NCBI GenBank assembly: GCA_002254845.1
Contig: NKPT01000029.1
Coordinates: forward strand, 1-41,839
Direction: 5' to 3'
DNA from: Chloracidobacterium sp. CP2_5A
GTDB taxonomy: Bacteria; Acidobacteriota; Blastocatellia; Chloracidobacteriales; Chloracidobacteriaceae
Length of the DNA: 41,839 nucleotides
A program made the position numbers and the translations under genes. The first letter of the stretch is position 1, and every line of letters begins with the position of its first letter. Positions 1,334-40,900 of the stretch are shown in pieces. The notes below the pieces were generated by a model. That model saw only the letters and a program-made list of their open reading frames with translations. It did no database searches and was not told the DNA's origin.

Positions 1334-4300
1334 TCACGACAGCAGCAATTCAAGATCGGCGCGCTCAAGGTTGCGAATAAGGCTATTGTCGGCCGTGATG
1401 ATGGCGTCGGCAAGCTCGCGCTTGGTCGCCTGAAGCTCAAGCACCTTTTCCTCGACCGTGCCCTTCACGATTAGCCGGTAGGCAAACACTGGGCGGGTTT
1501 GGCCGATGCGGTGCGCCCGGTCAATAGCCTGCGCCTCGACCGCTGGGTTCCACCACGGATCGAGCAAAAAGACATACTCCGCGGCGGTCAGGTTGAGGCC
1601 CTGCCCGCCGGCGCGCAAGCTGATGAGAAAGAGCTTGCAGTCAGGATCGGACTGGAATCGCTCGACGCGCTCCTGCCGGTTGCGCGTGCGGCCGTCGAGG
1701 TATTCGTAGGTCACGCCGTCCGCGTCGAGTCGCCTGCGAATGAGCGCCAGCAGGCTCGTGAACTGCGAGAAAACGAGCACCTTTGAGCCGCTTTCCAGCA
1801 CTTCGGTCAAGTGCAGGAAAAACGCATCGAGCTTGGCGCTGGGATCATCCGCTCTGGACGGGTCTAGCAGCGCTGGGTGGCACGCTGCCTGCCGCAGACG
1901 CAATAGGGCTTCCAGAATCTGAATTTTGGCGCGCTGAATGCCCTTGGAGGCAACGAGCCCCAGCAGCGCGCGCCGGTAGTGATCGCGCAGCTCCTCGTAG
2001 GCGCGGCGCTGCGCGCTTTCCATCTCGCAGTAAATGGTCTGCTCGGTTTTCGCGGGCAGGTCGCGAGCGACTTGCTCTTTCGTCCGCCGCAGAATGAAGG
2101 GGCGCAGGGCGCGCGCCAGCAACGCCTGCAGGTCCGGGTCCAGGACGCGCCCGCCGGTCGCCGTCACGTGGAAGACCGCCGCCGCGCTGAGCATGCCGGG
2201 GTTGAGAAACTCAAACAAGCTCCACAGCTCGCCCAGATGATTCTCGACCGGCGTTCCGCTCAGCGCCAATCGGTGGCGGCAGTTGAGCAAGCGGGCGGCT
2301 TTGGCCGACTCGCTGCGGGCGTTCTTGATGGCCTGCGCCTCGTCGAGAATGACGTAGTCGAAGGCGAAATCCTTGAGCAGGGCGGCGTCTCGGCGCAGCG
2401 TGCCGTAGGTGGTCAAAATCAGGTCGTAATTGGCGAGCGCCCCCAGCGACTTGGCGCGCGCCACGCCGGTATGCTCCAGCACGCGCATGCGCGGGGTGAA
2501 CTTTTCCGCCTCCTGTCGCCAGTTGAAAATCAGCGAGCGCGGCGCGACGACCAGCGTCGGCGGCAAACCCTCGCCGGCGCGGCGCGCGCGACGCATTTCA
2601 AGCAGCGCCAGCGTCTGCGCGGTTTTGCCGAGCCCCATGGCGTCCGCCAAGCAGCCGCCGAAGCCAAATCGCTGGAGAAACAGCAGCCAGCCCAAGCCCT
2701 CGCGCTGGTACGGGCGCAGCTCCCCGACAAAGCCCGGCGGCTCGGCGACGGGATCGATGCCGCCGAAGCTGCGGATTTCATCGCGCAGCGCCCGGAAACG
2801 CTCGTCAAGCTTCACTTCCGGCTGCGCCGCCAGCAGCGCGTCAAGCAGACTGACCTGCGTGGCGGCGAAGCGCAAATGATCGTCTTCCGTCTGTCCCAGC
2901 TTCGCCAACAAGCCGTACTGACCAAGCCAGTCTTCGGGCAGCAGGCCAAACGAGCCGTCCGAAAGGGTCACGAACTGCTCGCCCCGCCGCAGCGCCGCTA
3001 GCAGTTCCGGCAGTCGGGCCATCGCCGTTCCAAAATCGCCTGCGCCGTGCAGCTCAAACCAGTCCACGCCCGACCGGATTTCCATGGAAAAAGCGCCCAT
3101 CGGGCGGAACAAGCGCCCTTCCGATTCCACGCGCCAGCCCTGAGCCATCAGCTCGCGGGCGAGGGATGGAAGTCGCTTGGACTGGAAGCGATACCCCGGC
3201 TCAGTCAGCGGAGCCGGTCCAGCGCGCAAACCCAAATCGCGGAGCAGGTTGGCGGCGGCGCGCTCGCTCGCCGCGGCGCGCCGGATAAATCGTCGCGTTT
3301 GAGCGTCAAAAATGCCGGGCTGCGCGTCAGCCGCGTCAATCCACTGTCCTTCGTAGTCAAAGCCCAGCGTCGCTTGCAGCCACCCGTCGCCGGCGCGCGC
3401 GTCGCTTAGCCGCAAGCGCAAAACCGGCGTCGGAATCCCCTCCGCCGTTTCAAAGCGCAGCGACTCCGGCAGCGTCAGCGGCGGCAGGTTGGGCAGCCGC
3501 AGGAGCTTGTCCACGAGGTCGGGGCCGTCGGCGACCGGAATGCGAATCGGCCCCGCTTGCCGCAGCAGGCTAATCCAGTAAAACGCGCCGTCATCCTTCA
3601 GCGGAGCGACCGTCTCATCTGAGAACACAAGACCGCCGGCCAGCAGCAAGCGCGGGAGCGCCACCGGCTGACGCGCCGCGCCGCGCCGCAACTCGCCAGT
3701 CAAGACATAGCGCCCCGGCTCGGCTTCCAGATACACTTCCAAGTGTAAGCGCCAAGCCTCCGGCTCCCAGCGCAGGGGCGGTTCCTGAATGACCTTCTGG
3801 AGCGCGGACGGCTCATCGGCGACTTGCAGCCAGCAGCGTCCGGTTTGACACAACAGCGGCGTCACAATGGGAAGCGCCATGGCGGGAATCTGCACGCAGG
3901 ACGGCAGCGGCGACCAGTCCGCCGCGTCGCTCCAGGCGACATGCTCCTGAATGCCGCTTAGAAGCGCGAGCGCTTGGCGGTCGCGCTCATCCGGCAGCGC
4001 CGCGATCTGGCCGACGCTCAGCCCAATCGGGCGCAGGCGCCCCCAGGCGCCATCGAGCTTGCGCGTCCGCGACAGAATGTCCACGACCAGCGCGCCGCGC
4101 GCCCGCGTGCGGGGGACGTTGACGAAGTAGAGAATTTCCCGCTCGGCCCTTTCGTCGGGCGCGGTCGAGCGAGCGTACTGTCCGAGCTGGGCGAACCAGC
4201 GTCGCCAATCCGCCGCGGAGACGGCGGGCGACAGCTCATTCTCCGCCGAGACGGCTTGCACGCGGCCATCCTCGCCCGCCTTGCCGTCGGCAAGCCAGTC

Positions 4301-4684
4301 GGTCTCGGCCATGAGCCGAAACGGACGCCCCGCCGGCGCCGGCGGCAAGAGGCCCCGCTGCTCGGCGGCTCGGATGACCGCCCAGAGGTGTTTGCAAAAG
4401 TTGCCTTCTTCAAAGTGCGGGCAGGTGCAGGAAACAATCAGCGCGTCGCCGTCGTGAAGCATCTCGACCCGGTAGGTCATGCTGCCGCGCACATTGGCGG
4501 TAATGAGGCTTTTGAGCGCCTCCAGATGCGTTACGCGCCCAGCAGCGACTAGGGCTTCGCCCCGGTCGCGAGCGCCAGCGGCAAACTCTGGCGCGATACG
4601 CAGCGAGACAGGGAGCATGGCAGGCTCCGGGCGCTTGGATGGGGCGACGGGCGGCGGCGCGGCGGACGGCTTGGAACGGTTCAT
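1334..4684 (-). CDS. SNF2-family ATP-dependent helicase with SWIM zinc finger
   Basis: A superfamily 2 DNA translocase of the bacterial SWIM-SNF2 type (HepA/RapA-like), expected to remodel protein-DNA complexes using ATP. The N-terminus carries a SWIM zinc-binding motif, CxC-x8-CxH (Cys86, Cys88, Cys97, His99). A long region without recognisable motifs follows. The helicase core has a Walker A motif DAMGLGKT near residue 680, the box II variant DEAQ near 780, LSGTPVENHLGELWSLFEFL (motif III) and the C-terminal block GGQGLNLTAAEYVFLLDPWW through DRAHRIGQ near 1055. I chose ATG at 4684 because AAGG lies 5 nt upstream. An in-frame ATG at 4732 would add 16 residues but has no clear ribosome-binding site. 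At about 1,116 residues it is normal for SWIM-SNF2 proteins. fahA follows after 18 nt. Confidence 0.93.
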   Translation of the reverse strand: MNRSKPSAAPPPVAPSKRPEPAMLPVSLRIAPEFAAGARDRGEALVAAGRVTHLEALKSLITANVRGSMTYRVEMLHDGDALIVSCTCPHFEEGNFCKHLWAVIRAAEQRGLLPPAPAGRPFRLMAETDWLADGKAGEDGRVQAVSAENELSPAVSAADWRRWFAQLGQYARSTAPDERAEREILYFVNVPRTRARGALVVDILSRTRKLDGAWGRLRPIGLSVGQIAALPDERDRQALALLSGIQEHVAWSDAADWSPLPSCVQIPAMALPIVTPLLCQTGRCWLQVADEPSALQKVIQEPPLRWEPEAWRLHLEVYLEAEPGRYVLTGELRRGAARQPVALPRLLLAGGLVFSDETVAPLKDDGAFYWISLLRQAGPIRIPVADGPDLVDKLLRLPNLPPLTLPESLRFETAEGIPTPVLRLRLSDARAGDGWLQATLGFDYEGQWIDAADAQPGIFDAQTRRFIRRAAASERAAANLLRDLGLRAGPAPLTEPGYRFQSKRLPSLARELMAQGWRVESEGRLFRPMGAFSMEIRSGVDWFELHGAGDFGTAMARLPELLAALRRGEQFVTLSDGSFGLLPEDWLGQYGLLAKLGQTEDDHLRFAATQVSLLDALLAAQPEVKLDERFRALRDEIRSFGGIDPVAEPPGFVGELRPYQREGLGWLLFLQRFGFGGCLADAMGLGKTAQTLALLEMRRARRAGEGLPPTLVVAPRSLIFNWRQEAEKFTPRMRVLEHTGVARAKSLGALANYDLILTTYGTLRRDAALLKDFAFDYVILDEAQAIKNARSESAKAARLLNCRHRLALSGTPVENHLGELWSLFEFLNPGMLSAAAVFHVTATGGRVLDPDLQALLARALRPFILRRTKEQVARDLPAKTEQTIYCEMESAQRRAYEELRDHYRRALLGLVASKGIQRAKIQILEALLRLRQAACHPALLDPSRADDPSAKLDAFFLHLTEVLESGSKVLVFSQFTSLLALIRRRLDADGVTYEYLDGRTRNRQERVERFQSDPDCKLFLISLRAGGQGLNLTAAEYVFLLDPWWNPAVEAQAIDRAHRIGQTRPVFAYRLIVKGTVEEKVLELQATKRELADAIITADNSLIRNLERADLELLLS

Positions 4685-4901
4685 AGGGACCTTGCGGGCG
4701 GGGCGCGTCACAGCCTTGTCCCGCCGAAGCATGCCAGCATAATCGGGCGCCTCTCAAACGACAATGCGGCAGGGAAAGCCTTTCAGCGCGGCGGCGACCG
4801 ACCGCCTGCCCCAAGCCGCTCGACTTGTGCTATGAATTTGGTTGCTAAAGCGATGTCGTTGAGCCAACCGCGACTCACCTTCGAGCTAAGGATCAGCGTA
4901 T

Positions 4902-5168
4902 ATGACGGCAAGCGAACTGGCTGTTACCGAACTCTTACGTTACCCGACACTCGACGCCTTGTTACAATCGCCAAGCGAGTTGGCCGCGCTGCGTCGACAA
5001 CTCGATGCGACGCGGCATGCGCTGGATCGCGCCATCCGCCAGGGATCGCGCGATGAGGCCGCCGCGGCGTCGCAGGCCGCCCAAGCCTGGCACACGGTCG
5101 GCAAGCTGCTGGACGAAATGGCGTCGCTTCAGCAACGCGCCGCCGACCAGGGCGCGGCCGGCGACTGA
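4902..5168 (+). CDS. Small helical protein, candidate type III needle-chaperone (SctE-like)
   Basis: An 88-residue protein with no signal peptide or membrane segment. The sequence is rich in Ala, Leu, Gln and Arg with heptad-like spacing (for example LAALRRQLDATRHALDRAI), so it should form two alpha helices or a short coiled coil. ATG 4902 is preceded by AAGGA at a suitable distance. It opens a run of co-directional small genes leading to the SctU/FlhB-type gene at 6648. In Yersinia and Chlamydia a small helical YscE/CdsE-type chaperone precedes the needle gene and a TPR-like YscG chaperone; size, predicted fold and order here fit that pattern. No residue-level signature confirms it. It could instead be a needle-like SctF protein or an unrelated coiled-coil protein. 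The gene itself is likely real; the function is inferred from context. Confidence 0.6.
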   Translation: MTASELAVTELLRYPTLDALLQSPSELAALRRQLDATRHALDRAIRQGSRDEAAAASQAAQAWHTVGKLLDEMASLQQRAADQGAAGD

Positions 5169-5309
5169 GGGCGCGCGGTCAGCAAGCGGCTCGCGCGCCA
5201 AGAAAAAACCTTTCCAGCCGAACGCAACAATCCCGCCAGCGGGACGATAACCAGGGGCGACGGGGAGAGAATCCGCATTTTTGCTGAATACGCCTAGGAG
5301 ACCTCAACC

Positions 5310-5669
5310 ATGCCGGATGCAATGATCAATGGACTTCAGCCTGCGCTTGCGCCGTCGCCGTACGGCCAGCCAACGATGCCGGGCCGCGAGCCGGGACGCT
5401 TTGGCCGCATCTTCGGCGGCATTCTCGGCGGGGCGCTCAACGTGGTCGCGCCGGGCGTTGGCTCGATTGTTGGGGGCCTGCTGCGCGGCGGGAATTTGCC
5501 GGGCCTTGCCGATGCCGAGACGATGCTCTCGCAGCAGTACCACCAGCAGATGCAGCTCTTTTCAATTCAGACGCGCGTCAACAGCCTGTCGCAACAGTTT
5601 CAGATGATGAGCAATCTGATGAAAGCTCGCCACGACAGCGAGATGGCGGCGATTCAAAACCTCAAGTAA
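5310..5669 (+). CDS. Gly-rich protein with needle/rod-like helical C-terminus
   Basis: A 119-residue protein started at ATG 5310, with GGAG 9 nt upstream. Residues 1-29 are Pro/Gly-rich and look flexible. Residues 30-61 form a strongly hydrophobic Gly-rich stretch (RIFGGILGGALNVVAPGVG and onward) resembling a membrane-inserting or self-assembling segment. Residues 70-119 are a Gln/Met-rich amphipathic helix ending NLMKARHDSEMAAIQNLK. This tail recalls the C-terminal helix of type III needle (SctF) and inner-rod (SctI) subunits, which end in a conserved polymerisation helix. Its place between a small helical protein and a TPR protein, 1 kb before an SctU-type gene, supports an export-related structural or secreted role. 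The N-terminal hydrophobic part is not typical of needles (about 80-90 residues), so a secreted pore-like protein is the main alternative. Confidence 0.6.
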   Translation: MPDAMINGLQPALAPSPYGQPTMPGREPGRFGRIFGGILGGALNVVAPGVGSIVGGLLRGGNLPGLADAETMLSQQYHQQMQLFSIQTRVNSLSQQFQMMSNLMKARHDSEMAAIQNLK

Positions 5670-5680
5670 TCTCTCATCTC

Positions 5681-5719
5681 CAGCGCGCCGGCATCAGACC
5701 TGGCTTTGCCGGCGCGCTG
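5681..5719 (+). promoter_or_regulatory. Perfect 12-bp stem-loop before the TPR gene
   Basis: Arms CAGCGCGCCGGC (5681-5692) and GCCGGCGCGCTG (5708-5719) are exact reverse complements around a 15-nt loop. It begins 12 nt after the stop of the Gly-rich gene and ends 12 nt before the ATG at 5732, so it covers the place where the next ribosome-binding site should be. There is no U-tract of terminator type. It may act as partial terminator, 3' stabiliser of the upstream message, or brake on translation of the downstream gene, which would give unequal amounts of the two products. Confidence 0.55.
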
Positions 5720-5731
5720 ACTGGCGCTTTT

Positions 5732-6136
5732 ATGCCTTTGCTCCCTACGCCATCGGACGACGAGTTGCGCGCCGTTTTGGAGGCGGGCTACGTCCTGCGG
5801 GATGTCATGCGCTACGACGAGGCGGCGACGGTCTTTCAGGGCGTGGCCGCGCTGCGCCCCGACCTGGAACTTCCCTGTCTGGCGCTGGCAAGCGTCTTCA
5901 TCCGGCAGGGCGAGCTGGAGCGGGCGCAGGAGCTATGCGAATCCGTCCTGGCGCGCCGCCCGGACAGCCTGCACGCCCAGACGCAGCGGGGCGAGATTTT
6001 GCTCTATCGCGGCGCCCGCGCGGAAGGCGAGGAAGCGCTCCGCGCCGTCGTCGCCCAGGGCGGCGACTCGCCCCATGCGGCGACGGCGCGGGCGCTGCTT
6101 GACGCCTCGGCGGCGCTTGCGGATGCCGAGCCCTAG
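5732..6136 (+). CDS. TPR protein, candidate type III secretion chaperone (SctG/LcrH-like)
   Basis: A 134-residue all-helical protein without signal peptide. It has about three tetratricopeptide-like units: GYVLRDVMRYDEAATVFQGV, then LASVFIRQGELERAQELCES, then RGEILLYRGARAEGEEALRA. Small stand-alone TPR proteins in type III clusters are the needle chaperone YscG/PscG, the translocator chaperone LcrH/SycD, or HrpB1/HrpK-type proteins. This one directly follows the candidate needle/rod-like gene, which favours an SctG-like role. The ATG at 5732 has no clear Shine-Dalgarno sequence and sits just after a strong hairpin, so translation may be coupled or restrained. The TPR call is secure; the export role is from position only. 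Confidence 0.65.
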   Translation: MPLLPTPSDDELRAVLEAGYVLRDVMRYDEAATVFQGVAALRPDLELPCLALASVFIRQGELERAQELCESVLARRPDSLHAQTQRGEILLYRGARAEGEEALRAVVAQGGDSPHAATARALLDASAALADAEP

Positions 6137-6247
6137 AGCCCGGCCCTAGAGCGCGCCAAGTCGCCGTTAGCCTTTGTCCCCGGCCCATACTTGTCTGAAC
6201 GCCAAGCTGGCGCGTTGCGCAGCCTTCGCGATGAAAGGAGCCGCATC

Positions 6248-6661
6248 ATGAAAATTCGCCCGGGGTCGCCATTTGGCTCAAGCCCGACATCATCCGAGCC
6301 TGTCAAGGGCAAGAAGCGGTCTGGCGGCATTTTCGGCGCGCTCGTCGAAGGGCTGCAGGAGGCGGATGCCGCGGGGGCGCCCGCCGCGCCCAGCGCCGAC
6401 AGCCCAGCCCGCTCCGCGCTGGCGGCCATTGCGGCGCAGTCCAACTTGGCCAACCCGGAGGAAGCCGCCGCCGCCGTGCGCCAGTCGGCGCAATCGCTGC
6501 TGACGTTCAGCTTCTCCGATGACATCCAGTCGTCGCCGCTGAGCGAGCGCATGGCGAATGACCTCGCTAACCTAGCGGCCGGCGACCCGCGCTTCCGCCG
6601 CAAGATGCTTTCCATCCTGTCGCGTCTCAAGACGGAAACGACATCCCATGTCGCAAAGTAG
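6248..6661 (+). CDS. Unrecognised 137-residue protein of the export cluster
   Basis: I do not recognise the family. ATG 6248 has AAAGGAG seven nt upstream; the longer reading from 6191 lacks such a site. Residues 1-60 are basic then Ala/Pro-rich and look disordered. Residues about 60-137 are predicted helical (AALAAIAAQSNLANPEEAAA-like composition, then ANDLANLAAGDPRFRRKM and a basic C-terminal helix). There is no signal peptide or membrane helix. The gene overlaps the start of the SctU/FlhB-type gene by 14 nt, which argues strongly for translational coupling and a common pathway. It could be a small secreted regulator, substrate or cytoplasmic partner of the export gate. Confidence 0.6.
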   Translation: MKIRPGSPFGSSPTSSEPVKGKKRSGGIFGALVEGLQEADAAGAPAAPSADSPARSALAAIAAQSNLANPEEAAAAVRQSAQSLLTFSFSDDIQSSPLSERMANDLANLAAGDPRFRRKMLSILSRLKTETTSHVAK

Positions 6662-7730
6662 CGGAGAGAAAACCGAGCAACCTACGCAAAAGAAGCTCGA
6701 CGACGCTCGAAAGAAAGGTCAGGTGCCGAAAAGCCAGGACCTCGTCTCGGCGGCGCTTCTGGTCGGCTCGATAGGGATTGTTTTTCTCCTGGCCGGCAAC
6801 TTTATTGGGCAGCAGGTCGCGCATCTCACGCAAAGGAGCATCCTGCAAGCGGCGACGTTCAAAGGCGATTTGGATATGGCGACGGCCGGCGACGCCCTGC
6901 TGGAAGGCGTGACAACGCTGGCGCTCACGCTCGCGCCGCTGTTCCTGACGGTTTTCATCCTGGCGGCGTTGATCGGCTACATTCAGGTGGGCTCGCTGTT
7001 TTCGACCGAGGCGATCAAGCCGGATATGAACCGGCTCAACCCCTTTTCGGCTTTTCAGCAAAAGTTTTTCAAATCGCGGACTTACATTGAGTTCGCCAAA
7101 ACGCTTCTCAAGCTGGCGATTGCCGCGGGCATTGCCAGCTACGTCGTGTTGGGCTCGCGGCAGGCCTTGCCGACGCTGGCCCGCGTCTCTCCGGCCGCCG
7201 CCAGCGACTTCATGCTCGGGCAAGTCATTCAGCTTAGCCTGGCCGTCGCGATTTGCTTTGTGGCGCTGGGCGCGCTGGATTTTTTCCTTCAGAAGTTTCT
7301 GCACCTGCAAGACCTCAAAATGACGAAGCAGGAAGTGAAGGAAGAATGGAAGGAACAAGAGGGCGACCCGCATATCAAGGCCGAGCGCCGCGCCATTCAC
7401 CTGGAGCTGCTCAACGAGGCGAGCGCGCATGCCGTCAAGGAGTCGGATGTCGTGCTGGTCAACCCGACCCACGTCGCCGTGGCGATCCGCTATGATCGCA
7501 AAGCGATGAACGCGCCGCAGATCGTGGCGAAGGGCGCGGACCTCATCGCGGCGCAAATCCGCGAGATCGCCCGCGAGGCGGGCGTGCCCATCAAGCGGGA
7601 TGTTCCGCTGGCCCGCGCGCTCTATGAGCTGGAAGTCAACAGCGAGATTCCCGAGCATCTTTACGAGGCGATCGCCATTGTCCTGCGATGGGCCTACACG
7701 CTGGCTGACGCCGATGGTCGCTCGGCATAG
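6648..7730 (+). CDS. sctU: Type III export switch protein, SctU/FlhB (YscU) family
   Basis: A 360-residue inner-membrane component of the type III export apparatus that switches substrate class after self-cleavage. The N-terminus SSGEKTEQPTQKKLDDARKK is the hallmark of FlhB/YscU. Four hydrophobic segments follow (about residues 28-50, 78-108, 143-162 and 182-212). The cytoplasmic domain then contains the autocleavage tetrapeptide NPTH (about 273-276) and the block PLARALYELEV. Family length is about 350-360, so it is complete. The flagellar paralogue FlhB normally sits with flhA and other fli/flh genes. None is present, and the neighbours are small helical and TPR proteins, so a non-flagellar system is favoured, although parts of the C-terminal domain (VAKGADLIAAQIREIAREAG) also resemble FlhB. 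The start overlaps the preceding gene by 14 nt. Confidence 0.9.
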   Translation: MSQSSGEKTEQPTQKKLDDARKKGQVPKSQDLVSAALLVGSIGIVFLLAGNFIGQQVAHLTQRSILQAATFKGDLDMATAGDALLEGVTTLALTLAPLFLTVFILAALIGYIQVGSLFSTEAIKPDMNRLNPFSAFQQKFFKSRTYIEFAKTLLKLAIAAGIASYVVLGSRQALPTLARVSPAAASDFMLGQVIQLSLAVAICFVALGALDFFLQKFLHLQDLKMTKQEVKEEWKEQEGDPHIKAERRAIHLELLNEASAHAVKESDVVLVNPTHVAVAIRYDRKAMNAPQIVAKGADLIAAQIREIAREAGVPIKRDVPLARALYELEVNSEIPEHLYEAIAIVLRWAYTLADADGRSA

Positions 7731-7779
7731 TTAGCCTAAGCTTCATCCAGCATCAGGTTGTCCGGGGAGGGTCGGTCAC

Positions 7780-8430
7780 ATGCCGGAGGTGGGAGGCGTC
7801 AACAACCGCCAGCCGCTGCCAGGCGGCAGCGCGGCGGGCGGCGGTAACGAGCGGGTTGGCGGAACGCGGTTCAACCCTGTTGCAGGAACTGTCGGGCAGC
7901 CGGGCGAAATTGGACAACCCCGCGGACTGCCCGCGCCGGAAGCTCCCGGACAGAAAAATATTCTGCCCGACGCCTTGCTTGGGCGCGACCCGTCGCAGGC
8001 ATTGGCGGCAGAGCAACTGCGAGCCACCGGCGGCGCTTCCGCCACCGAGGAACTGTTGGGCCTCAACCAGCAGCCAACCATGCCCGGCGCGATACTTCCG
8101 CCGCTGGGCAACGATGTCGCGCTGCGGCATCTGACGCCCACAATGCGGCGCGAGCTGCTGCGCCGACTGCTTGACCGCCAGCAGCGAAACGCGCGACGGC
8201 TGTTGGCCGTCTTGCCCCGCGACGAAGAAGAGACTTCTGAGCGCCGCCGTCGCCGGGCGCTCCCTGAAGAAGCGGCTGGGGCCGAGGCCCTCGCTGCTCT
8301 GCCGGAGCCGCAGCGCGAGCGAGCCGCCAGCGAGCTGCATCAATCGCTGCGGCTGCTTGAGCTGATTGACCGCCTGATGGCGCTGCAGGACGAAACCCTG
8401 GCGCAGATGAGCGCCAGCGCCCAGCGGTGA
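7780..8430 (+). CDS. Unrecognised protein after sctU: disordered N-terminus, helical C-terminus
   Basis: A 216-residue protein, family not recognised. ATG 7780 follows a GGGGAGGG site about 10 nt upstream. Residues 1-100 are Gly/Pro/Asn-rich and low in hydrophobics, as in secreted type III substrates or flexible linkers. Residues 105-216 are strongly helical and charged, with LTPTMRRELLRRLLDRQQRN, a run of five arginines, and a final helix LRLLELIDRLMALQDETLAQ. There is no signal peptide or membrane segment. It is the last gene of the cluster (49 nt after sctU), and a hairpin follows its stop. Candidate roles are a secreted regulator, a length-control protein or a C-ring-associated protein; none is proven. 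Confidence 0.55.
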   Translation: MPEVGGVNNRQPLPGGSAAGGGNERVGGTRFNPVAGTVGQPGEIGQPRGLPAPEAPGQKNILPDALLGRDPSQALAAEQLRATGGASATEELLGLNQQPTMPGAILPPLGNDVALRHLTPTMRRELLRRLLDRQQRNARRLLAVLPRDEEETSERRRRRALPEEAAGAEALAALPEPQRERAASELHQSLRLLELIDRLMALQDETLAQMSASAQR

Positions 8431-10058: not shown

Positions 10059-11339
10059 ATGCCTGCTTTATCGCTTTGTTTCCTCGCTGTGTTCGGCTGG
10101 CTCGCCCTTGCCCCCGCCGCGGCCGCGGCGCGCCCATCCGCGCCTCAGTCAAAGCCCCCGTCAACAGAGGCGGCCCCCGCCGCGGCAGAAGCTTTTGAGC
10201 GCATTCGCGCGAGCGGATTCGACGCGCTTTACAACCTCGATTACCGCGGCGCGCGAGCCGCCTTTGAGCAACTCGTCAAGCTTGATCCCAGGCATCCGGC
10301 CGGCTACCTCGACTTAGCCAACGGCATGTGGGCCGAGAAGCTCTACCGAGCGCGCCGCCTGCAAGCGACAACCTACGCCGGCGAGACGTTTTTCGCGGAG
10401 ACGAAAGAGCCGTTTGACAAGGACTTCGACCAACGCTACCGGGAAGCCATCGCTTTGTCGATCCAGGTCGCTGACGCCCGACTCAAGGACAATCCGCGCG
10501 ACGCGGTGGCGCTCTACTACAAGGGCGCGGCGCATGGCTTGCTCGCAGCCTACGAGGCGACCATTACGCGCGCGTTCCTGGCCGCCCTGAGCCAGAGCAA
10601 CAAGGCGGTCGCCCTGCATCGCGAAACGCTCAAGATTGACCCCGACTATGCCGACGCCAACCTTTCCATCGGGCTGTACAACTATGTCGTCGGGTCGTTG
10701 CCGATCCCTGTCAAAATTGTCGCGGCGCTGGGCGGCGCGCGCGGCTCGAAGAAGCGCGGGCTGGCGTTGGTCGCCAAAGCCGCCAACGAAGGGCGCTCCG
10801 CGCGCGATGCGGCCCGACTGCTGTTGATCACGCTTTACAAGCGCGAGAAACGGTACGCCGAAGCCTTGCCCTATCTAGAAGCATTCACGCGACAGTATCC
10901 CGCCAACTATGTCGCCCGGCTGGAGCTAGCCGACACCCTGGCCCGCATGGGGCGGGTCGCGGAGGGCATCGTCATCTTTGAGCAGCTGGCAAAAGACCCA
11001 GCCGCCAGCGCTTATCAGGACGCCATCCGCTACCAGCTTGCCGACGCGCTCTTTTCCGTCGGGCGCGCGGAGGACGCCGTGCCGCATCTGCGCGCCGTGA
11101 TGACCTTGCCTGGCGCGAACCCTGATCTCGTCACGCTGGCCCAGTTGCGGCTTGGCGAGTCCCATGACGTGGCCGGGCGCCGCGCCGAGGCGGTATCCGC
11201 TTACCGGAGCGTTCTTCGGCGGCGCAATGTTTTTGACTCCCACGCCCGCGCGCAGGCGCGCCTGAAGAAGCCATACGCCTTGCCGGCGTCTGACGCCCCG
11301 CCCTCCACAGCCGAAGAAGCTGGGGAAGGCCAGCCATGA
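10059..11339 (+). CDS. Secreted tetratricopeptide-repeat protein
   Basis: A 426-residue protein. ATG 10059 has GGAGG 8 nt upstream and opens a good signal peptide ([20 protein letters not shown], cleavage after AAAAA or nearby), so it is exported to the periplasm or outer membrane side. The mature part is built of tetratricopeptide-like helical pairs, for example [20 protein letters not shown] near 55-75, [20 protein letters not shown] near 270-290 and [16 protein letters not shown]. Between these is a less typical region (about 80-240) containing [19 protein letters not shown]. Such proteins act as scaffolds; no enzymatic motif is seen. The upstream in-frame extension to 9849 overlaps the divergent kinase gene and is rejected. 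The stop overlaps the start of the DUF2256 gene (ATGA). Confidence 0.88.
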
Positions 11340-11506
11340 CGCACCAAAAGCCGCATCTGCCGGAGAAAATCTGTCCGGTATGCAAGCGACCGTTCGCCTG
11401 GCGCAAAAAATGGCGCCACGCATGGGAGCAGGTTGTGTATTGCTCGCGGGACTGCGCCGGACGCAAGCGCAAAGCGCCGCCGCGCAGCGAGCCGGTCGCC
11501 TCCTAG
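11336..11506 (+). CDS. DUF2256 small zinc-finger-like protein
   Basis: A 56-residue gene. It starts with ATG overlapping the TGA of the TPR gene (ATGA). The protein has the DUF2256 pattern: [19 protein letters not shown], then a Trp-rich link, then VVYCSRDC, giving CxxC...CxxxC spacing that can bind one zinc ion. The C-terminus is basic (AGRKRKAPP). The family is widespread, often encoded next to photolyase/cryptochrome-like genes, and has no established function. The overlap indicates co-translation with the TPR gene, though no functional link is known. Confidence 0.9.
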
Positions 11507-21309: not shown

Positions 21310-22295
21310 GAGCTTGGGCTGGCGCTTCCAGCAAGGATGGCGGCCAAGGCTTCGCCGATGGACGGCCGCGCTAGCGCGGCCTCGTAAGTCGCCGCCAGCA
21401 ACGCCGCCCATCCCTGCGTTTCAAGGGCTTCGGTCAGCGCGCCAAGGGACGGGAAGACGCAGGGCGCGGCGGCGAAGCAAGCCGCATGGTCGGGATCGAT
21501 CTTGACCGGCAACGCGCCGCAGCGCAGCGCGTCGTGGACGCGAAAGGTCTCGAAATAGGGAAACGGATGCTGCGCCCGCCAGATGTAAAGCCGCGCGCGC
21601 TCAAGCAGACGCTCCAGGGCGTCTTTGGTCAGCCGACCGCTGCCGGGCCGCGCCGGGCCGGCCTCGGTCAGCAGGAGAAAGCCGCCGGGTTGCCATCGGA
21701 CAAGCTCCTGCGCGAAGGCGATGCGGGCCGGCGTTCGCATGCCGACCAACGCCCACGGGATGGGGCGGCCGGCGGCGCCCCCGTCCGCCGACAAGGCGGC
21801 GCGCCGGCGGGCGAAGTCGTCCAGCTCGGCGCGGGTCGCCACCGTTCCGAGGACGTGATAGGGTATGTCGCGGCGCGCTTCCGGCAGCGGGTAGCCGAAC
21901 CAGCCAACCTCGATAAGTTCCGTCCAGGGGACGCCTTCGGCAAACTGTTTGTCGAACCACTCCGTGCCGACGCATTCGGCCGAAAGCAAGATCCGGCGCG
22001 ATACGGCGGCAAGTCGCGCGCGCAGCTGCGAAACCCGAGCGCCAAGCTGCGGCTCGCGGACGACTTCCTCCCAGTTGACGATCACCGCCTGGTCGCGCGG
22101 CTCGTCGGCGAGCCATTCGACCGCGTTGCGCAGGCGCGCCGTCGCGCGCAGGTCAGCGGGCAGGTCGGCGTGGAGCCGCCGGGCGAAATCCGCGTGATAC
22201 CAGTTGTTGGTGTGGCTGTAGATGATGTCAATCCCCACGATACCCACGCTTATCAGCCGCGCTTGGAAGCTGTTTGCGCCGGCGTTTTGGCTCAT
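21306..22295 (-). CDS. Glycosyltransferase-like protein (exostosin-like), copy A
   Basis: The upstream partner of the pair, about 329 residues from ATG 22295. It shares with copy B the N-terminal block DIIYSHTNNWYHADFARRLH, AECVGTEWFDKQF (copy B: AECVGTVWFQRQL), RPIPWALVG, and the C-terminal FETFRVHDALRCGALPVKID, which looks like a nucleotide-sugar-binding segment. The start is uncertain. ATG 22295 has AAGG very close upstream but makes the gene overlap the divergent receptor gene by 74 bp. GTG codons at 22247 and 22238 would align better with copy B's N-terminus (which begins eight residues before DII) and reduce the overlap to 17-26 bp. The gene pair looks like a recent tandem duplication that has since diverged. 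Cytoplasmic, function inferred. Confidence 0.65.
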   Translation of the reverse strand: MSQNAGANSFQARLISVGIVGIDIIYSHTNNWYHADFARRLHADLPADLRATARLRNAVEWLADEPRDQAVIVNWEEVVREPQLGARVSQLRARLAAVSRRILLSAECVGTEWFDKQFAEGVPWTELIEVGWFGYPLPEARRDIPYHVLGTVATRAELDDFARRRAALSADGGAAGRPIPWALVGMRTPARIAFAQELVRWQPGGFLLLTEAGPARPGSGRLTKDALERLLERARLYIWRAQHPFPYFETFRVHDALRCGALPVKIDPDHAACFAAAPCVFPSLGALTEALETQGWAALLAATYEAALARPSIGEALAAILAGSASPSS

Positions 22296-25200
22296 CGCCT
22301 TGCTCTTATGCTCGCTTTTGTGCGCGCGAACGCCGGCCCAGTCCACCCTGGCGACGCTGACCGGCGTCGTCACGGATGAGCAGGGCGCGCCAGTCGGCGG
22401 AGCGACGGTTGTCGTTCACGATACGCGGCGCAACATCGTTCGGGAAGTCGTTACGGACGCCCGCGGGCGCTACGCGTTCACCGCCCTGGAGCCGACAAGC
22501 TACCGGGTGACGGCGCGGCATCCGGCGCTGGGCGTCGCGGCCGAGACGGCGGCGACGCTCAGCCTGGGCGCACAGCGCAACTTGCCGTTGACGCTGCTGC
22601 CAGCCGCCGCGTTCGACGCCGAAGTGCGCGCCGACGCGATGGCGCTCGAAACAACCAATCCAGGGCTTAGCCGCGCCGTCAGCGAGCGCGACATTCAAGC
22701 GCTTCCGCTCGGCGGCCGCAATTTCGTGGATTTGGTCAAGCTTTCGCCAGGCGTGACGCCTGGGCGGGAAAATATCGGCGGCGGGCCCTTCAAGGAGCCG
22801 GACATTGGCGTTGGCGCAGCGGCCGCGCCGCGCATCGCCTTTGGCGGCCAGACCGAACTCAACACGCTGGTTCAGCTTGACGGACTGGATCACGTCCAGA
22901 CGGTGACGGGCCTGCCGCGCGCGACGCCTCCGACTGAAGCCGTGGCAGCCTTTCGCGTCACCAACGCGACGTTTGACAGCGAGCACGGCCGCTCCCTTGG
23001 CGGCTTCGTCAACATCCTGACCAAATCGGGCGGGAATGATTGGCGCGGCAGCCTCTACGCCTACGTCGTCAACGACGCCGTCAATGCGCGCCCGCGGCTG
23101 GCCGGGCCGCGCCCTGTGCTGCGCCAGCATCAGTTAGGCGCGACGCTCGGCGGGCCGCTCAAGCGCGACCGGCTGTTTTTCTTCACCAGCTACGAAGGAC
23201 AACGCCGGGCGGAGTCAAACCGCTTTTCGCAGGTCATTTTCGCCAACCTCGCCGCCATCAACCGGGTTCGCCAACACTACGGGCTGACGCCGGAGACAAC
23301 CGACCAGTTGCGGACGGGCGACTACGACCTGGGATTTGGGCGGATGGACTGGCGACCCGACGACCGCCGCGCGCTAGCGCTGCGCGTCAACGCGCTGGTC
23401 GGAGCGACGCGCGGCTTTTTGGGCGGCGGCGGGCGCGCTTCCGCGGCGTCCACGACGGCGCGCGACAACCGGACGAGGGACGTCACGCTCAGCGGCGCCT
23501 ACACGGTCGCCGGCTCGCCGACGCGCGTCAGCGAGCTGCGCGGACAGTGGGCGCGGCGGGATTTCAGCTTTCGTCCGCGCTTCGCCGAGCCGGCGCTGGA
23601 GCTGCCGAACCTGATTGTCATGGGCAAGAGCACCTCCGACGTGGACGACTACCGCGAAGACCGCCTCCAGTTGGCAGGCGCGTTCACGCAGTTGACGGGC
23701 GCGCACACGGTCAAGATCGGCGGCGACTGGTCGCGGCTGGCCGACGCCGCGCAATGGGATTTGTTTTACCCGGCGCGCATCATTTTCGGCGGCTTGCTGC
23801 CGGCGTTTCTCAACCAAGCGCCGGACGGGCGACCCGACCCGCAGCCGAGCGTGTTTTGGTTTCCGTTTGTCACCGGAGCGACGACGGCCCCGCCGATTCC
23901 GTTTCCGTTCCGGCAAGCTGTGCCGGAGGCGCTGCTGCCAAATGCGCGAACTCGCCTGACGCACGCCCATTACGGCGCGTTTGCGCAGGATCAGTGGCGG
24001 GCGACGCCGACGCTGACCGTGACGTACGGCCTGCGGTATGACGCGGAAACCTATCCGCGCCGATTCCTTGACCGGCGAGATTGGAACAATGTCCAGCCCC
24101 GGCTCGGCCTGGCGTGGGGCTTCGCCCGCGGGCGCGGCGTGGCGCGGGCGGGCTATGGGGTGTTTACCGACCGGATCGCGTCCAGCGTCGGGCAGGTGAT
24201 TTTCGGCGCGGAATGGATTTCGCGGGGAGACTTGGCGACGGCGCCACAAATTTTCGCGAATGTGGCGCGGTTTCGCGGCCGGTTTCGGCAGGCGACGATT
24301 GGCGGGCCGCCGTCGGCGACCTCGCCGATTGGCGCGGCGCGCGCGACTGACGTCTTCTTGCGCGGGACGACGAGCGCGCCGGTCGGCTACGGCGTTCCGG
24401 TCGGGAGCGCGTTGCCGCCGGGAACATTGCCGTTGCCGACGCCGGAAAGCGGCGCGACGGCCAGCTTTGCCGATAACCTCAGCCGCCGATTGCGTAACCC
24501 GTACGCGCAGCACATCGCGCTTAGCGTCGAGTATGAAGCGCTTGGGGTGGCGTGGTCGGCAAGTTACCTGCGCGCGCTGGCGCTCCAGCTGCCCGGCCAC
24601 ACCGGCAACCTCAACGCCTTTCAGACGGGCGCGCTGCCAACCGGCAAGCCTATCCTTGGCGGGCGGCGGTTTGCGGAGTTGGGGCATTTCTTTGTGACGG
24701 ACAACCTTGGCGCGAGCGGCTACCACGGCGGCTTTTTCGCGGCGCGGCGCGCATGGCGCGGCGGCTGGTCGCTTTCGGTCGCGCATACCTGGTCAAAGAC
24801 GCTGACGACCGTGGATTCCGTCAACAATTTGGCCGATTACCCCGAAGGTCTCGCCCTGGAGCGGTTTTTGTCGCGGCAGCACGCGACGCATCGGCTGGCG
24901 GCGACGGTCGCGGGCGAGTCGCCGCGTCAAACCGGCTGGCTGGGCGGCTGGCAGGGCGCCGTGGTCGTGGCGCTGGAAAGCGGGCGGCCGTTCAACGTCT
25001 TCGCGGGGGGCGACTTCAACGGCGACGGCAACCCCAACAGCGACCGACCGGGACTGTTGCCGCGCAACAGCTTTCGCGGCCCCGGCTTCGCCACGGCGGA
25101 TGTCCGGCTGGGGCGCAGCTTTCGGCTCGGCGAGCAAGCCTGGCTGGAAGTTACGCTGGATGCGTTCAACGTTGCCAATCGGGTCAACATCCGCGATGTG

Positions 25201-25320
25201 AACCTGGCTTACGGCGGCGCGAGTCTGACGGCGCCGCCCAATCCGTCGCTTCAGTTCGGCGCGCCGCGCGATGTCTTTGGGGCGCGACAGCTGCAGTTGG
25301 GCGTCAAGGCGCGGTTTTAG
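22222..25320 (+). CDS. TonB-dependent receptor with carboxypeptidase-regulatory domain (Oar-like) 1
   Basis: A 1,032-residue outer-membrane transporter-like protein. A signal peptide is visible (WKLFAPAFWLIALLLCSLLC; start ATG 22222 or 22225). Residues about 42-115 form a CarboxypepD_reg-like beta sandwich (LTGVVTDEQGAPVGGATVVV, RGRYAFTALEPTSYRV). A plug domain follows with LPLGGRNFVDLVKLSPGVTP, VQLDGLDHVQT and LGGFVNILTKSGGNDWRGSL. The rest is a beta barrel of alternating polar/aromatic strands that ends in LQLGVKARF with the C-terminal Phe expected for outer-membrane insertion. This architecture is typical of the Oar/SusC-like receptors abundant in Acidobacteriota. The ligand is unknown. 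The start lies head to head with, and overlaps, the glycosyltransferase-like gene on the other strand. Confidence 0.92.
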   Translation: MMSIPTIPTLISRAWKLFAPAFWLIALLLCSLLCARTPAQSTLATLTGVVTDEQGAPVGGATVVVHDTRRNIVREVVTDARGRYAFTALEPTSYRVTARHPALGVAAETAATLSLGAQRNLPLTLLPAAAFDAEVRADAMALETTNPGLSRAVSERDIQALPLGGRNFVDLVKLSPGVTPGRENIGGGPFKEPDIGVGAAAAPRIAFGGQTELNTLVQLDGLDHVQTVTGLPRATPPTEAVAAFRVTNATFDSEHGRSLGGFVNILTKSGGNDWRGSLYAYVVNDAVNARPRLAGPRPVLRQHQLGATLGGPLKRDRLFFFTSYEGQRRAESNRFSQVIFANLAAINRVRQHYGLTPETTDQLRTGDYDLGFGRMDWRPDDRRALALRVNALVGATRGFLGGGGRASAASTTARDNRTRDVTLSGAYTVAGSPTRVSELRGQWARRDFSFRPRFAEPALELPNLIVMGKSTSDVDDYREDRLQLAGAFTQLTGAHTVKIGGDWSRLADAAQWDLFYPARIIFGGLLPAFLNQAPDGRPDPQPSVFWFPFVTGATTAPPIPFPFRQAVPEALLPNARTRLTHAHYGAFAQDQWRATPTLTVTYGLRYDAETYPRRFLDRRDWNNVQPRLGLAWGFARGRGVARAGYGVFTDRIASSVGQVIFGAEWISRGDLATAPQIFANVARFRGRFRQATIGGPPSATSPIGAARATDVFLRGTTSAPVGYGVPVGSALPPGTLPLPTPESGATASFADNLSRRLRNPYAQHIALSVEYEALGVAWSASYLRALALQLPGHTGNLNAFQTGALPTGKPILGGRRFAELGHFFVTDNLGASGYHGGFFAARRAWRGGWSLSVAHTWSKTLTTVDSVNNLADYPEGLALERFLSRQHATHRLAATVAGESPRQTGWLGGWQGAVVVALESGRPFNVFAGGDFNGDGNPNSDRPGLLPRNSFRGPGFATADVRLGRSFRLGEQAWLEVTLDAFNVANRVNIRDVNLAYGGASLTAPPNPSLQFGAPRDVFGARQLQLGVKARF

Positions 25321-37961: not shown

Positions 37962-40900
37962 TCAGAACGCCAAGCGCAGCGAGAACTGCACCGAGCGCGG
38001 GCCGCCAAATTGGAAGAGCTGGTTGAAGCCGCTGGCTGGAGATGTCTGTCGTATTGTTCCCGACACGCCCGACAAGGCGCGTCCCAGCATGCTCGATGAC
38101 TCCCCGTTGAGGCCGATGGCTCCATTCGGCAGTCGGGTCGGTCCGCCGGGCGCGCCTGGCGTGGCGAAGTTGGGGCGGTTGAAAATGTTGAAAAGCTCGG
38201 CGGCGAACTGAAGCTGCAGCCGCTCGTACAGGCGAAAGGCGCGACGCAGCGAGAAGTCCAGCTGATTGGCTCCGACCCAGCGCAGACTGTTGCGGCCGAG
38301 CGTGCCCTGCCGGTTGCGCCCCGGCTCGGCAAAGGCCGCCGCGTTGAGGCGCCGTCCGCCAGGCGCATTGCTATCGCTGAGAAACGCGGGCTGCCCCGGC
38401 ACGAGGTCAACCCGGCGCGTCGTCCCAATGTTGAATACGTCAAACGACTGCGAGATGACGTTGAGCGGCTGCCCTGACCGCGCCCGGAAAATGCCGCTGA
38501 CCGACCAGCCGCCAAGCAGCGCCCGAGCTAGGGCGTTGTCGGAGAAGGTCGGAAGGTCATACGTCACCGCTCCCACGAACGTTTGCCGGATGTCGAAATC
38601 GGATGGGCCTCGCTCCAGCCGCTGGTTGAAGCCTTCCAGCGGGATGCCCTGAAACGCCTCGTCCGACATGTCGTCAATCGATTTTGACCACGTGTAGGAT
38701 GCTAGCGCCTGCACGCCCCGCGACAGGCGTCGCCGATACTGCATTTGCAGCGCGTTGTAGCTCGAGGAAGTCGCGTTGCGCGTCACGATGACTGGCGAGC
38801 CGGCGGCGGGCGACGCTGATGGAGCGGGGCCAAAAACGGCCGGATTGATGACGATGACGGCCCGGTCAAGACCGAAATTCTGCCGCGCAAACGCGTCATT
38901 GTAGTTGCGTAGTTGCTCGCTGCGCAGCAGTCGCCGCCCAGCCGCGCCGACATACGAAATGGTTACCGCGTTGTTGCGACCAATGGCTCGCTCCAGCGTG
39001 ACGTTCCAGTGGTGCGTGTAAGGCAAGCGCAGATTGCGGTCAAAGACGGCAAAGCTGGAGCTGATCGGCAGGCTGTTGGGATCGAGAAACGGCGGCGGCT
39101 GGATGTCGGCTTCGTTGGCCGGGAAGCGCAACTGCGCCGGGTTGGTAATGGTTCGAAAGGTGTTGTAGGGAAAGCTATTGAAGCCGCGCAGCGCCGTTCC
39201 CGTGCCGAGATCGTAAAAGATTCCGTAGCCGCCGCGTAGAATCCAGCCGCCAATCAATTCGCCAAGCGCCGATCCGGAGCGCTCGGCGAGCTGGTAGGCA
39301 ATGCCAAGGCGTGGCGCAAAATCTATGTAGCGCGTGCGCCATTGGCGCGTCCCGGCTGGGGCGAGCCTTGCCGTCAGCGGGTTCTCCAAGCCGTCGATCG
39401 AAAACGGAAGCCGCTCGCCGGCCAGCGGCGGGTTGAGCTCATGCCGCAGCCCAAGGGTCAGCGTCAAGCGCGGCAGGATGCGCCAGGTGTCCTGAATGAA
39501 GGATGAAAAATTGTGGATGCGGAAGCCGCTGACCGGCGCAAAGGACTGTACGGAGATCGAGGTCGGCGCGCCCGTCGCGCGGCTAGCCGGGGTCGAGAAG
39601 GCGTAGCTGATGGAAAGCGCCCGCGTATCCTGAAGCGGACGCAGCAGGCGATAGTCCGCGCCAGCCTTGATCTCATGATTGCCAACCACGTAGGTCACGC
39701 TCCCGACCAAATTGAACTGGCGCTGGAGTTGTCCCAGCGTGCGGCCTTGGGTCAGATTGGCCGCGGAGATGCCTGACGCCCCGGGAATGGTTTGCAGACT
39801 GACGGCCGTCGTCGCGCGCGGCGCGAATGATGGAAAGATGAGCGAATCCGGGGGCAAGGCCGCCCCGTCGCGCGCGACGCCCCGGAAATCAAAGTTGCCG
39901 CGCGAGCGGCCAAAGTTCATCCGCGCATCCAGCACGAGATTCGGCCGGATCGCCCACGTCACGCCGCCGGTGAAGCTCCGGTTGTTGCGCTCGAAGGCGT
40001 TTTCCTGACTGGGGAACGAGCGAAACCGGCTTCCCGAAGGCGAGTTCAGAAACGTGAAGAAAGCGTTGGCCCGCTGACCCAATTTCTGGTCGAAGCGCAG
40101 GTTGACGGTGTCAACTTCCGAGGGGTCTGAAATCCCCGTGACGTAGCGCGCCGCGTCGACCGGATCGCCTGGCTGCGCCGGGGCGTTCGGGAGCGGGAAG
40201 GCGTTCAGAACGGCGCGAAACGGCTCCGGCGCGGCCTGCCGCGCCGCCAGCGACGGCACGCGGGCAATGAACACCGTCCCCGGCACGAGCAGCCGCAGCC
40301 CCTCGTAGGTCGCAAAGAAAAACGATCGATTGCGCCCGTCGTACAGCCCTGGAATGCGGATCGGGCCGCCGAGCGTCCCCCCGAACTGGTTCAGCCGCAA
40401 CGGCAGGCGCGGGCGGCCGTCGCGGTTGTTGAACCAGTCGTTGGCGTCAAGCTTTTCATTGCGCAGGTAATGAAACAGCGAGCCGGTGAACTCGTTGGCC
40501 CCGCTACGGGTGGAGATGGAAATCTGCCCGCCCGGCGTCCGCCCGTATTCCGCCGCGAAGCTTGAGGTCTGGACGCGAAACTCCTGCATGGCGTCAGCCG
40601 GCACAAGGCTGTTCGTGCCGCCCAGCACGGTCAGCGCCGGCTGCGTCCCCGCGCCCTGCTGGAACGACTGCGCCGTGACGGCCGCGCCGAAGTTGGCGCT
40701 CACGCCGTCCACCATGAAGTAGTTGGCGTTTGTCCGCTGCCCGTTGATGCTGAACTGCCCCGTTGAGGTAATGCTCGCCGCCGCAAGCGTCACGCCGGGC
40801 GTCAGCTCGATCAGCGCCTGAAAGCTGCGTCCGTTGAGAGGCAGGCTCTCGACAAACTTCCGCTCGACGACCGTCCCAAGCGCGCCCGACTCGCGGTTCA

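Follow-up and report, generated by a model that had tools for sequence, protein, structure and literature searches.

Evidence for a scattered, apparently secretin-less non-flagellar type III secretion system with needle-like genes in Chloracidobacterium

A six-gene unit around sctU

We analyse a six-gene unit located at positions 4902–8430 of a 41,839-nucleotide stretch of DNA (hereafter the window; contig NKPT01000029.1) from the genome (3.4 Mb, 385 contigs) of the photosynthetic hot-spring bacterium Chloracidobacterium sp. CP2_5A, together with the type III secretion system (T3SS), a relative of the needle injectors found in pathogens, to which it appears to belong. An earlier note on this DNA had described the unit as a partial, possibly divergent T3SS-like cluster without flagellar genes, in which small proteins resembling a needle subunit and its two chaperones precede a gene of the SctU/FlhB family. 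Re-reading of the frames confirms the six genes and the NPTH site described there with one correction, the 137-residue gene starting at ATG 6248; its mechanical open reading frame (ORF), from TTG 6191, spans 156 residues. The features of the unit, and the gene that flanks it, are listed below (all coordinates refer to the window; other genomes, loci and contigs or replicons are designated by handles beginning with G, L and C, respectively).

4902..5168, + strand: 88-residue helical protein, "E-like", candidate needle co-chaperone (from position and conservation)
5310..5669, + strand: 119-residue needle-like protein, "F-like", with a Gly-rich hydrophobic N-terminal half and an SctF/HrpA-like helical C-terminal tail (from its profile family)
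5732..6136, + strand: 134-residue tetratricopeptide repeat (TPR) protein, "G-like", candidate needle chaperone (from TPR models and neighbourhood)
6248..6661, + strand: 137-residue protein (p156), without family assignment (homologues beside sctU or TPR genes in relatives)
6648..7730, + strand: SctU, export-gate switch protein, 360 residues (Pfam and NCBIfam profiles)
7461..7472, + strand: NPTH autocleavage motif of SctU, residues 272–275 (sequence reading)
7780..8430, + strand: 216-residue protein downstream of sctU (conserved locus position)
1334..4732, − strand: SNF2-family helicase, flanking and divergent, a conserved neighbour outside the system (Pfam, locus comparison)

Intergenic spacings along the unit are 141, 62, 111, −14 and 49 bases, the negative value corresponding to a 14-base overlap between the end of the p156 gene and the start of sctU. 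SctU matches the Pfam family Bac_export_2 with 368.8 bits and scores higher in NCBIfam as SctU (344.9 bits, cut-off 358) than as FlhB (328.2 bits, cut-off 349), below both cut-offs. The TPR protein matches TPR_19 in Pfam (E 4e-14) and resembles the NCBIfam models LcrH/SycD (the best, E 6e-9), CdsG and SctY, each under cut-off; a PDB search with the profile of its family confirms the TPR fold and nothing beyond it. No credible Pfam or NCBIfam family was found for the 137-residue protein, and the profiles of the 137- and 216-residue families met no credible match in the PDB. The predicted model of the 216-residue protein is of low confidence (predicted local distance difference test score, pLDDT, of 59), with a helical C-terminal half.

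All six genes have homologues at the sctU locus of each of the six further genus genomes compared (7/7 with the genome of the window itself), and because this holds for each gene in all six of them, the module is more than a chance arrangement. Ratios of nonsynonymous to synonymous substitution rates (dN/dS) relative to the window copy are 0.04–0.07 for the 119-residue gene (among the lowest of the six), 0.05–0.08 for sctU and the 216-residue gene, 0.07–0.19 for the TPR and 137-residue genes, and 0.06–0.14 in five pairs for the 88-residue gene, whose sixth pair is saturated; several further pairs also show a high dS. The six-gene module is under purifying selection across the genus. Five of the six other genus loci have an upstream match to the divergent helicase, and at the sixth (L054) the helicase stretch is matched only by ORFs on the opposite strand.

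Relatives extend this picture to larger clusters. Writing p156' and p216' for homologues of the 137- and 216-residue genes and single letters for sct genes, the gene orders are V-J-K-L-N-[1270 aa]-p156'-U-p216'-Q-FliO-R-S-T at L101, D-V-J-K-L-N-p156'-U-p216' at L102 and p156'-U-p216'-Q-FliO-R-S-T in G019. Homologues of p156 lie immediately 5' of sctU, and homologues of the 216-residue gene 3' of it (E 1e-32 to 2e-32), in L101, L102 and L064, and a p156 relative directly follows the TPR gene of G010 (E 2e-6) and that of G011 (E 0.001), completing a quartet E-F-G-p156. Since relatives keep both genes inside type III clusters, we regard the 137- and 216-residue genes as T3SS genes.

The E-F-G-like order proposed for the window is seen again in four more genomes of Blastocatellia (G010, G011, G162 and G019), counting as such given the needle reading of the tail protein and with the E-like gene of G011 assigned by position and alignment only. 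Relatives of the 88-residue protein precede the needle-like gene in G162 (87 residues, E 8e-6), G010 (103 residues, E 0.001) and G019 (E 3e-5, in a stretch containing residues read as unknown); G011 has a 105-residue gene in the E-like place that can be aligned to the 88-residue protein and has no phmmer match to it. PDB searches with the 88-residue family returned no YscE/SsaE/PscE-type match, and the matches obtained, which included designed proteins of armadillo and coiled-coil type, were taken as composition effects. On the grounds of its position and conservation, the 88-residue protein is a candidate E-like protein.

Export genes elsewhere in the genome

The description of the cluster as partial proved wrong at the scale of the genome, where SctV, SctR, SctS, SctT, SctN, SctQ, SctL, SctJ, FliO, an FHA/SctD-like protein and a probable SctI are encoded at other loci:

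C113, 6339–8489: SctV
C113, 8576–9727: FHA/SctD-like protein
C158, 23742–27476: SctQ-FliO-SctR-SctS-SctJ
C277: SctN, SctL and an "SctK-position" protein, a label guessed from gene order, with no family match
C209, 18177–19019: SctT
C344, 14286–14810: SctI, by profile; the SctI matches of relatives lie under cut-offs

The genome search suggested in the earlier note (sctV, sctR/S/T, sctN, sctJ and sctC) thus recovers every gene except sctC, no dedicated secretin having been found. Across the genus, SctU, SctR, SctJ and SctT are present in 7/7 genomes, SctV in 6/7 and SctI in 6/6 searched, and an ATPase scores above the FliI/YscN cut-off in 7/7; SctQ, SctS, SctL, FHA and FliO were identified in the genome of the window. 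In G001, G004 and G005, whose genomes are complete, SctV, SctU, SctJ, SctR, SctT, SctN and SctI are all encoded on C2, a 1-Mb replicon, along which they are dispersed in G001 (V at 21, U at 372, J at 483, R at 640, T at 652, N at 793 and I at 968 kb); in G005, J adjoins R. A FliJ-like SctO candidate exceeds its cut-off in G001.

The FliO gene, which like the missing secretin had not been foreseen, lies directly upstream of SctR in Chloracidobacterium, L101, G019 and G010. The FliO of the window's genome passes its Pfam cut-off (38.8 bits, cut-off 22) and misses that of NCBIfam (44 bits, cut-off 55), which G010 FliO passes. In the system of G017, FliO and FliP domains share one open frame of 406 residues (L066, 4232–5449).

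Curated cut-offs place SctV, SctR, SctN and SctL on the non-flagellar side. SctV (719.7 bits) passes the hrcV cut-off (692.25) and misses that of FlhA (592.8 bits, cut-off 772.1), SctR (223 bits) passes the yscR cut-off (208.6) and misses that of FliP (207 bits, cut-off 217), and SctN (633.9 bits, cut-off 604.75) and SctL (103 bits, cut-off 78.7) both pass non-flagellar NCBIfam cut-offs. SctQ misses its cut-off by 0.1 bit (100.7 against 100.8), and SctJ scores 95 bits as SctJ (cut-off 162, missed) against 33 as FliF. The core set sctR, S, T, U, V, N, Q and J, in which the secretin is not counted, is found in full, with SctU, SctJ and SctQ assigned by best-scoring family under curated cut-offs. 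These scores agree with the divergent T3SS envisaged in the earlier note, and the outcome that would have spoken against it, flagellar genes as the only export genes of the genome, was not encountered, SctV scoring above FlhA and SctR above FliP.

The stated absence of flagellar genes likewise holds for the rod/hook family PF00460, the flagellar family searched, which occurs in 0/7 genus genomes and in 3/18 genomes searched overall. YscJ/FliF gives one weak match per genus genome (59–65 bits, in an open frame of 296–330 residues), SctJ-like in the window's genome, and no protein of FliF size. Class-wide, SctV exceeds the hrcV cut-off in 19 of 162 genomes, in all of them with at least 708 bits, followed by G017 with 669 bits and by the remainder with at most 594.

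In a concatenated tree of the gate proteins R-S-T-U-V (27 taxa), the Blastocatellia system falls within the non-flagellar (NF) clade in 40/40 resamplings, as it does in 36/40 with V alone (20 taxa) and in 40/40 with R-S-T-U (27 taxa). Blastocatellia are monophyletic in 40/40, 40/40 and 27/40 resamplings of the R-S-T-U-V, V and R-S-T-U sets, and the other sampled NF systems form one clade in 38/40, 9/40 and 40/40, respectively. In the concatenated tree, Blastocatellia lie outside these other systems, seven in number, four of which carry a secretin within the stretch examined; because the tree contains no Chlamydiales and no named Myxococcota, a basal position is not established. The place of G017 is unstable, and the IQ-TREE tree carries no support values, a fast run having given Shimodaira–Hasegawa-like approximate likelihood-ratio values whose labels shift on re-rooting. 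Judged by its sequences, the Blastocatellia machine is a non-flagellar T3SS, in the broad sense, with a complete core.

Needle-like proteins and the outer ring

The 119-residue protein itself matches no Pfam or NCBIfam family. We rely on a family of tails, seeded with those of the 119-residue protein and of two proteins of 69 and 233 residues encoded beside sctV and searched against 15,961 ORFs of the fetched loci. In its first round the three-tail seed recovers relatives in G019, G017 and G010 and an 89-residue Opitutaceae protein (E 7e-4). This protein has matches, none of them reaching its cut-off, to SctF (TIGR02105, E 2.7e-4; PF09392, E 0.0017) and more weakly to SctI (E 9.5e-4). In two Opitutaceae contigs this SctF-like gene is followed by a TPR gene that is, among the fetched loci, the best match of the window TPR outside Blastocatellia (E 5e-11 and 2e-10). 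The tail relative of G019 matches the HrpA pilin (E 3.6e-4, under cut-off), and an NCBIfam scan of 11 tails gives one HrpA match (E 3.9e-5) amid many unrelated ones.

Structural searches give weak matches. Against the PDB, with E-values up to 10 admitted, the sole match of a Blastocatellia-only tail profile is chain 7y6c_F (E 0.56), which is also the first of two matches of the eleven-row profile (E 0.8); when Opitutaceae rows are included, MxiH and PrgI appear, ranked under two designed armadillo proteins. The 43 residues of 7y6c_F are entered as "needle protein co-chaperone", and to our reading of the printed letters they look like a needle tail. The single 119-residue sequence retrieves nothing relevant from the PDB. 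In its AlphaFold2 model, built with six sequences, helices occur only from residue 50 onward, with one long helix at 64–118. The tail family thus appears remotely linked to SctF, through profile matches that are individually weak and for the most part agree. Of the profile searches recommended for the small proteins, those on the F-like family led to this remote link and to the HrpA match of one relative; the search with the 88-residue protein yielded an SsaE match below threshold (E 0.084).

Three copies of the tail family occur in five of the six genus genomes searched and one in G006, two each in G010, G011, G017 and G019 (weakest E 0.006), and two in G162 with a doubtful third that is weak and contains stops; none occur in the same-family genomes G007–G009 (0/3), which have no T3SS. 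The rows of the tail profile come from G000, G001, G005, G017, G019 and G162, so that G003, G004, G006, G010 and G011 are independent finds. Of the paralogues beside sctV, the 69-residue one (n69) is a second needle-like protein with its own SycD-like TPR protein, and the 233-residue one combines a hydrophobic N-terminal half with the same tail. We also considered the 119-residue protein as the inner rod SctI and rejected this assignment, a separate family with weak SctI matches (E 0.01 and 0.03, below cut-off) being present in the same genomes.

Six-frame ORFs totalling 112,159 residues contain the peptide P[ST]MPG at four places, always in T3SS-associated small proteins: in the window at 5310–5669 and 7780–8430, and in L049 at 10537–10746 and 10798–11499. 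Two of the four carriers are paralogues, and conservation across the genus is incomplete.

No dedicated secretin was found in a whole-genome PF00263 census of 13 genomes with typing of eight proteins. The census gives two secretins per genome in 12/13 genomes and three in G008, same-family genomes without a T3SS included. Typing of the eight secretins of G000, G007, G010 and G019 shows that each pair consists of one protein above the PilQ cut-off and one whose closest model is GspD (below cut-off); none of the eight reaches the SctC cut-off (238), the best scoring 127 bits. A local scan with the typed secretins detects a secretin in four other NF-type loci (L127, L137, L138 and L170) and none in L104, L110, L112, L143, L173 and L178 (some truncated), in L114, in the Blastocatellia T3SS loci or in the window. 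This control being partial, the absence of a secretin rests mainly on the PF00263 census. By hydropathy, the only clear transmembrane helix of the FHA/SctD-like protein lies at its C-terminus in 4/4 orthologues examined, and if this FHA protein is SctD, it appears to have no periplasmic domain.

Large outer-membrane beta-barrel proteins were set aside as candidates for the missing channel, the window copy having no visible link to the T3SS. The window encodes a large TonB-plug/outer-membrane beta-barrel protein at 37962–41360 with a relative at 22222–25320, and the L101 cluster contains a large outer-membrane beta-barrel protein.

A candidate secretin-less machine and its rivals

Taken together, the observations are probably best explained by an apparently functional, scattered, secretin-less non-flagellar type III system with needle-like genes. 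In such a machine, SctR-S-T, SctU and SctV would form the export gate within an SctJ lipoprotein ring, FliO would assist SctR as it does in flagella, and SctN, SctL, FHA and SctQ would provide the ATPase and sorting platform. Self-cleavage of SctU at NPTH would bring about the substrate switch. The 88-residue and TPR proteins may keep the C-terminal helix of the 119-residue protein bound while it is cytoplasmic, in the way that YscE and YscG act on YscF, and the 119-residue protein, once exported, could polymerise on the SctI rod; the 137- and 216-residue proteins would be clade-specific export or regulatory factors. A fibre without a secretin of its own might be periplasmic, might pierce the outer membrane by itself, or might pass through a borrowed PilQ- or GspD-like secretin.

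A number of results weigh against this explanation. Concerning the small proteins, no tail-family member reaches the SctF cut-off, and E-values against known SctF and PDB needles are weak; the tail of the window's own protein has no NCBIfam match, and the tail relative of G017 finds its best Pfam match in SseC, a family of translocators (E 0.006), the needle family coming next (E 0.048). The fold check proposed for the 119-residue protein produced a model of mean pLDDT 60 with a low-confidence N-terminal half and 0 Foldseek matches in the PDB, and the 88-residue protein has no credible Pfam or NCBIfam family match, its best NCBIfam hit being the unrelated TraF (E 0.019), ahead of SsaE. As to the export apparatus, the window SctU falls just short of its NCBIfam cut-off, and SctS passes the cut-offs of both FliQ and SctS, with FliQ giving the higher score. 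An NF-T3SS does not usually have its genes dispersed in this way, and G006 has no SctV match and one tail protein though it is 99% complete, its sctV block being either lost or inside an assembly gap. No SctP, gatekeeper, tip or translocator was identified, and no SctO candidate was found in the stretches of the window's genome examined, SctO not having been searched genome-wide. Finally, the local scan recovers a secretin in only 4/10 other NF-type loci, and a secretin too divergent for PF00263 is possible.

Two rival explanations deny a working injectisome-like machine altogether. That the genes are the export apparatus of a reduced flagellum is exceedingly improbable: FliO and a FliJ-like protein do occur in the genus, and SctS leans towards FliQ, but the rod/hook family and a FliF-size protein are missing, four components exceed non-flagellar cut-offs, the gate falls within the NF clade in all resamplings of the concatenated tree, and isolates are described as non-motile, with no flagella detected by transmission electron microscopy (TEM) (PMC8245765, PMC12816986). 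The dispersal of the genes over the chromosome, the lack of an SctV match in G006 and the absence of T3SS genes from the three other same-family genomes searched (0/3) would suit the remnants of a decaying T3SS; against this vestigial reading, which we deem very unlikely, the gate and ATPase set is present genus-wide in matches free of stops, and each of the six window genes has a dN/dS well under 1.

The other two rivals retain a working system and reassign one of its parts; we consider each of them improbable, if well short of negligible. SctF proteins are normally short, and the Gly-rich, hydrophobic N-terminal half of the 119-residue protein, the SseC match of its G017 relative and the 233-residue paralogue of similar build would fit a hydrophobic secreted substrate or translocator-like protein sharing a needle-type tail, the true SctF then being n69, which like its relatives (71 and 83 residues) is needle-sized and placed after a SycD-like TPR gene. 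The order of small protein, tail protein and TPR in four more genomes argues against such a reassignment, as do the HrpA match of the G019 homologue, the dN/dS of the 119-residue gene and the Opitutaceae SctF-like genes that precede the TPR gene closest, among the fetched loci outside Blastocatellia, to that of the window. Alternatively, a normal injectisome might borrow a PilQ- or GspD-like secretin encoded elsewhere: all six genus genomes searched encode two secretins, one PilQ- and one GspD-like in the window's own, and NF-T3SS are described as having recruited secretins at least three times (PMC3459982). However, the same two types occur in G007, a genome of the same family in which SctU, SctR and SctV gave no match, both secretins lie on C1 and the T3SS genes on C2 in G001, G004 and G005, and a periplasmic domain through which the SctD-like protein could contact a secretin is apparently lacking.

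If the secretin-less explanation is preferred, a more specific form of it can be put forward, which we hold to be possible rather than likely. Blastocatellia, cultured Chloracidobacterium among them, might keep a working type III system of the kind proposed for the common ancestor of injectisomes, with a gate of flagellar origin that includes FliO, a ring of the lipoprotein SctJ, an FHA protein anchored in the membrane but having no periplasmic ring, no secretin, and needle subunits of two needle-like families, each beside its own TPR chaperone; its periplasmic or self-penetrating fibre could serve against mat neighbours or in attachment, and some of the unexplained pili seen by TEM could be such fibres. 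A role against neighbours is plausible but speculative, and is suggested by DUF1521 and RNase toxin neighbours in relatives, by pili and by predation with the M. xanthus T3SS*. DUF1521 proteins, effector candidates, are encoded beside a SycD-like TPR and near the E-F-G triad in G019 and G162 (L065, 13752–14783; L271, 2791–3801), and a 527-residue protein of G019 with a bacterial RNase A toxin domain adjoins a 125-residue gene near the needle-like gene (L065, 10396–12353); neither kind was found in the stretches of the window's genome examined. DUF1521 occurs in rhizobial effectors. C. validum is described as bearing numerous pili or fimbriae and the cultured species as non-motile (PMC8245765, PMC12816986), and M. 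xanthus predation uses a needleless T3SS* (PMC12075869).

The window unit shares with YscE-YscF-YscG the order of small helical protein, tail protein and TPR protein, and differs in the Gly-rich N-terminal half of some 60 residues in its F-like protein and in an E-like protein without detectable homology. The CdsE-F-G genes of Chlamydia follow the same order. Unlike an Ysc-type injectisome, Chloracidobacterium has no dedicated secretin or periplasmic SctD domain that we could find; like the flagellar export apparatus, it has FliO before SctR (compare fliO-fliP and the fused frame of G017), and unlike it, no rod/hook family or FliF-size protein was found. Judged by published descriptions, the system resembles the Myxococcales NF-T3SS and M. 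xanthus T3SS* in having a non-flagellar gate and ATPase and no secretin (PMC3459982, PMC12075869), and the Myxococcota T3SS in the presence of FliO (PMC12403147), directly before SctR in Chloracidobacterium; the Myxococcales systems are reported without SctF or needle, whereas the Chloracidobacterium system has SctF-like tails, remote in homology, with chaperone-like partners, and is dispersed over several loci. NF-T3SS genes spread over several loci are also described for Chlamydiales, which in contrast have their own T2SS-type secretin (PMC3459982).

Abby and Rocha inferred a first NF-T3SS without secretin but with SctF, and the secretin-less systems then available to them, those of Myxococcales, were without SctF (PMC3459982). 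The Chloracidobacterium system may resemble this long-postulated evolutionary intermediate; if so, the intermediate would become open to bench experiments, since these phototrophs are cultured, non-motile and free-living and their system combines needle genes with the lack of a secretin. Detection schemes that require a secretin (PMC4793230, PMC3459982) would probably miss it, and such machines may therefore be under-counted. Among the matches listed in the open-licence literature, none was seen to describe a T3SS for Chloracidobacterium or for Blastocatellia, and in a word search "secretion" occurs nowhere in the genus papers PMC8245765 and PMC12816986.

Two further observations concern components of the machine outside the window. 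SctI genes adjoin genes for peptidoglycan-cutting enzymes, a LysM-glucosaminidase in the genome of the window (L272, 4898–6799) and an SLT transglycosylase in L101 (15714–16844). A domain of the FlhA/SctV cytoplasmic type follows long TPR arrays in proteins of 1318 residues (L276, 592–4545; from G033, which has no SctU or SctR match) and 1537 residues (L277, 1254–5867).

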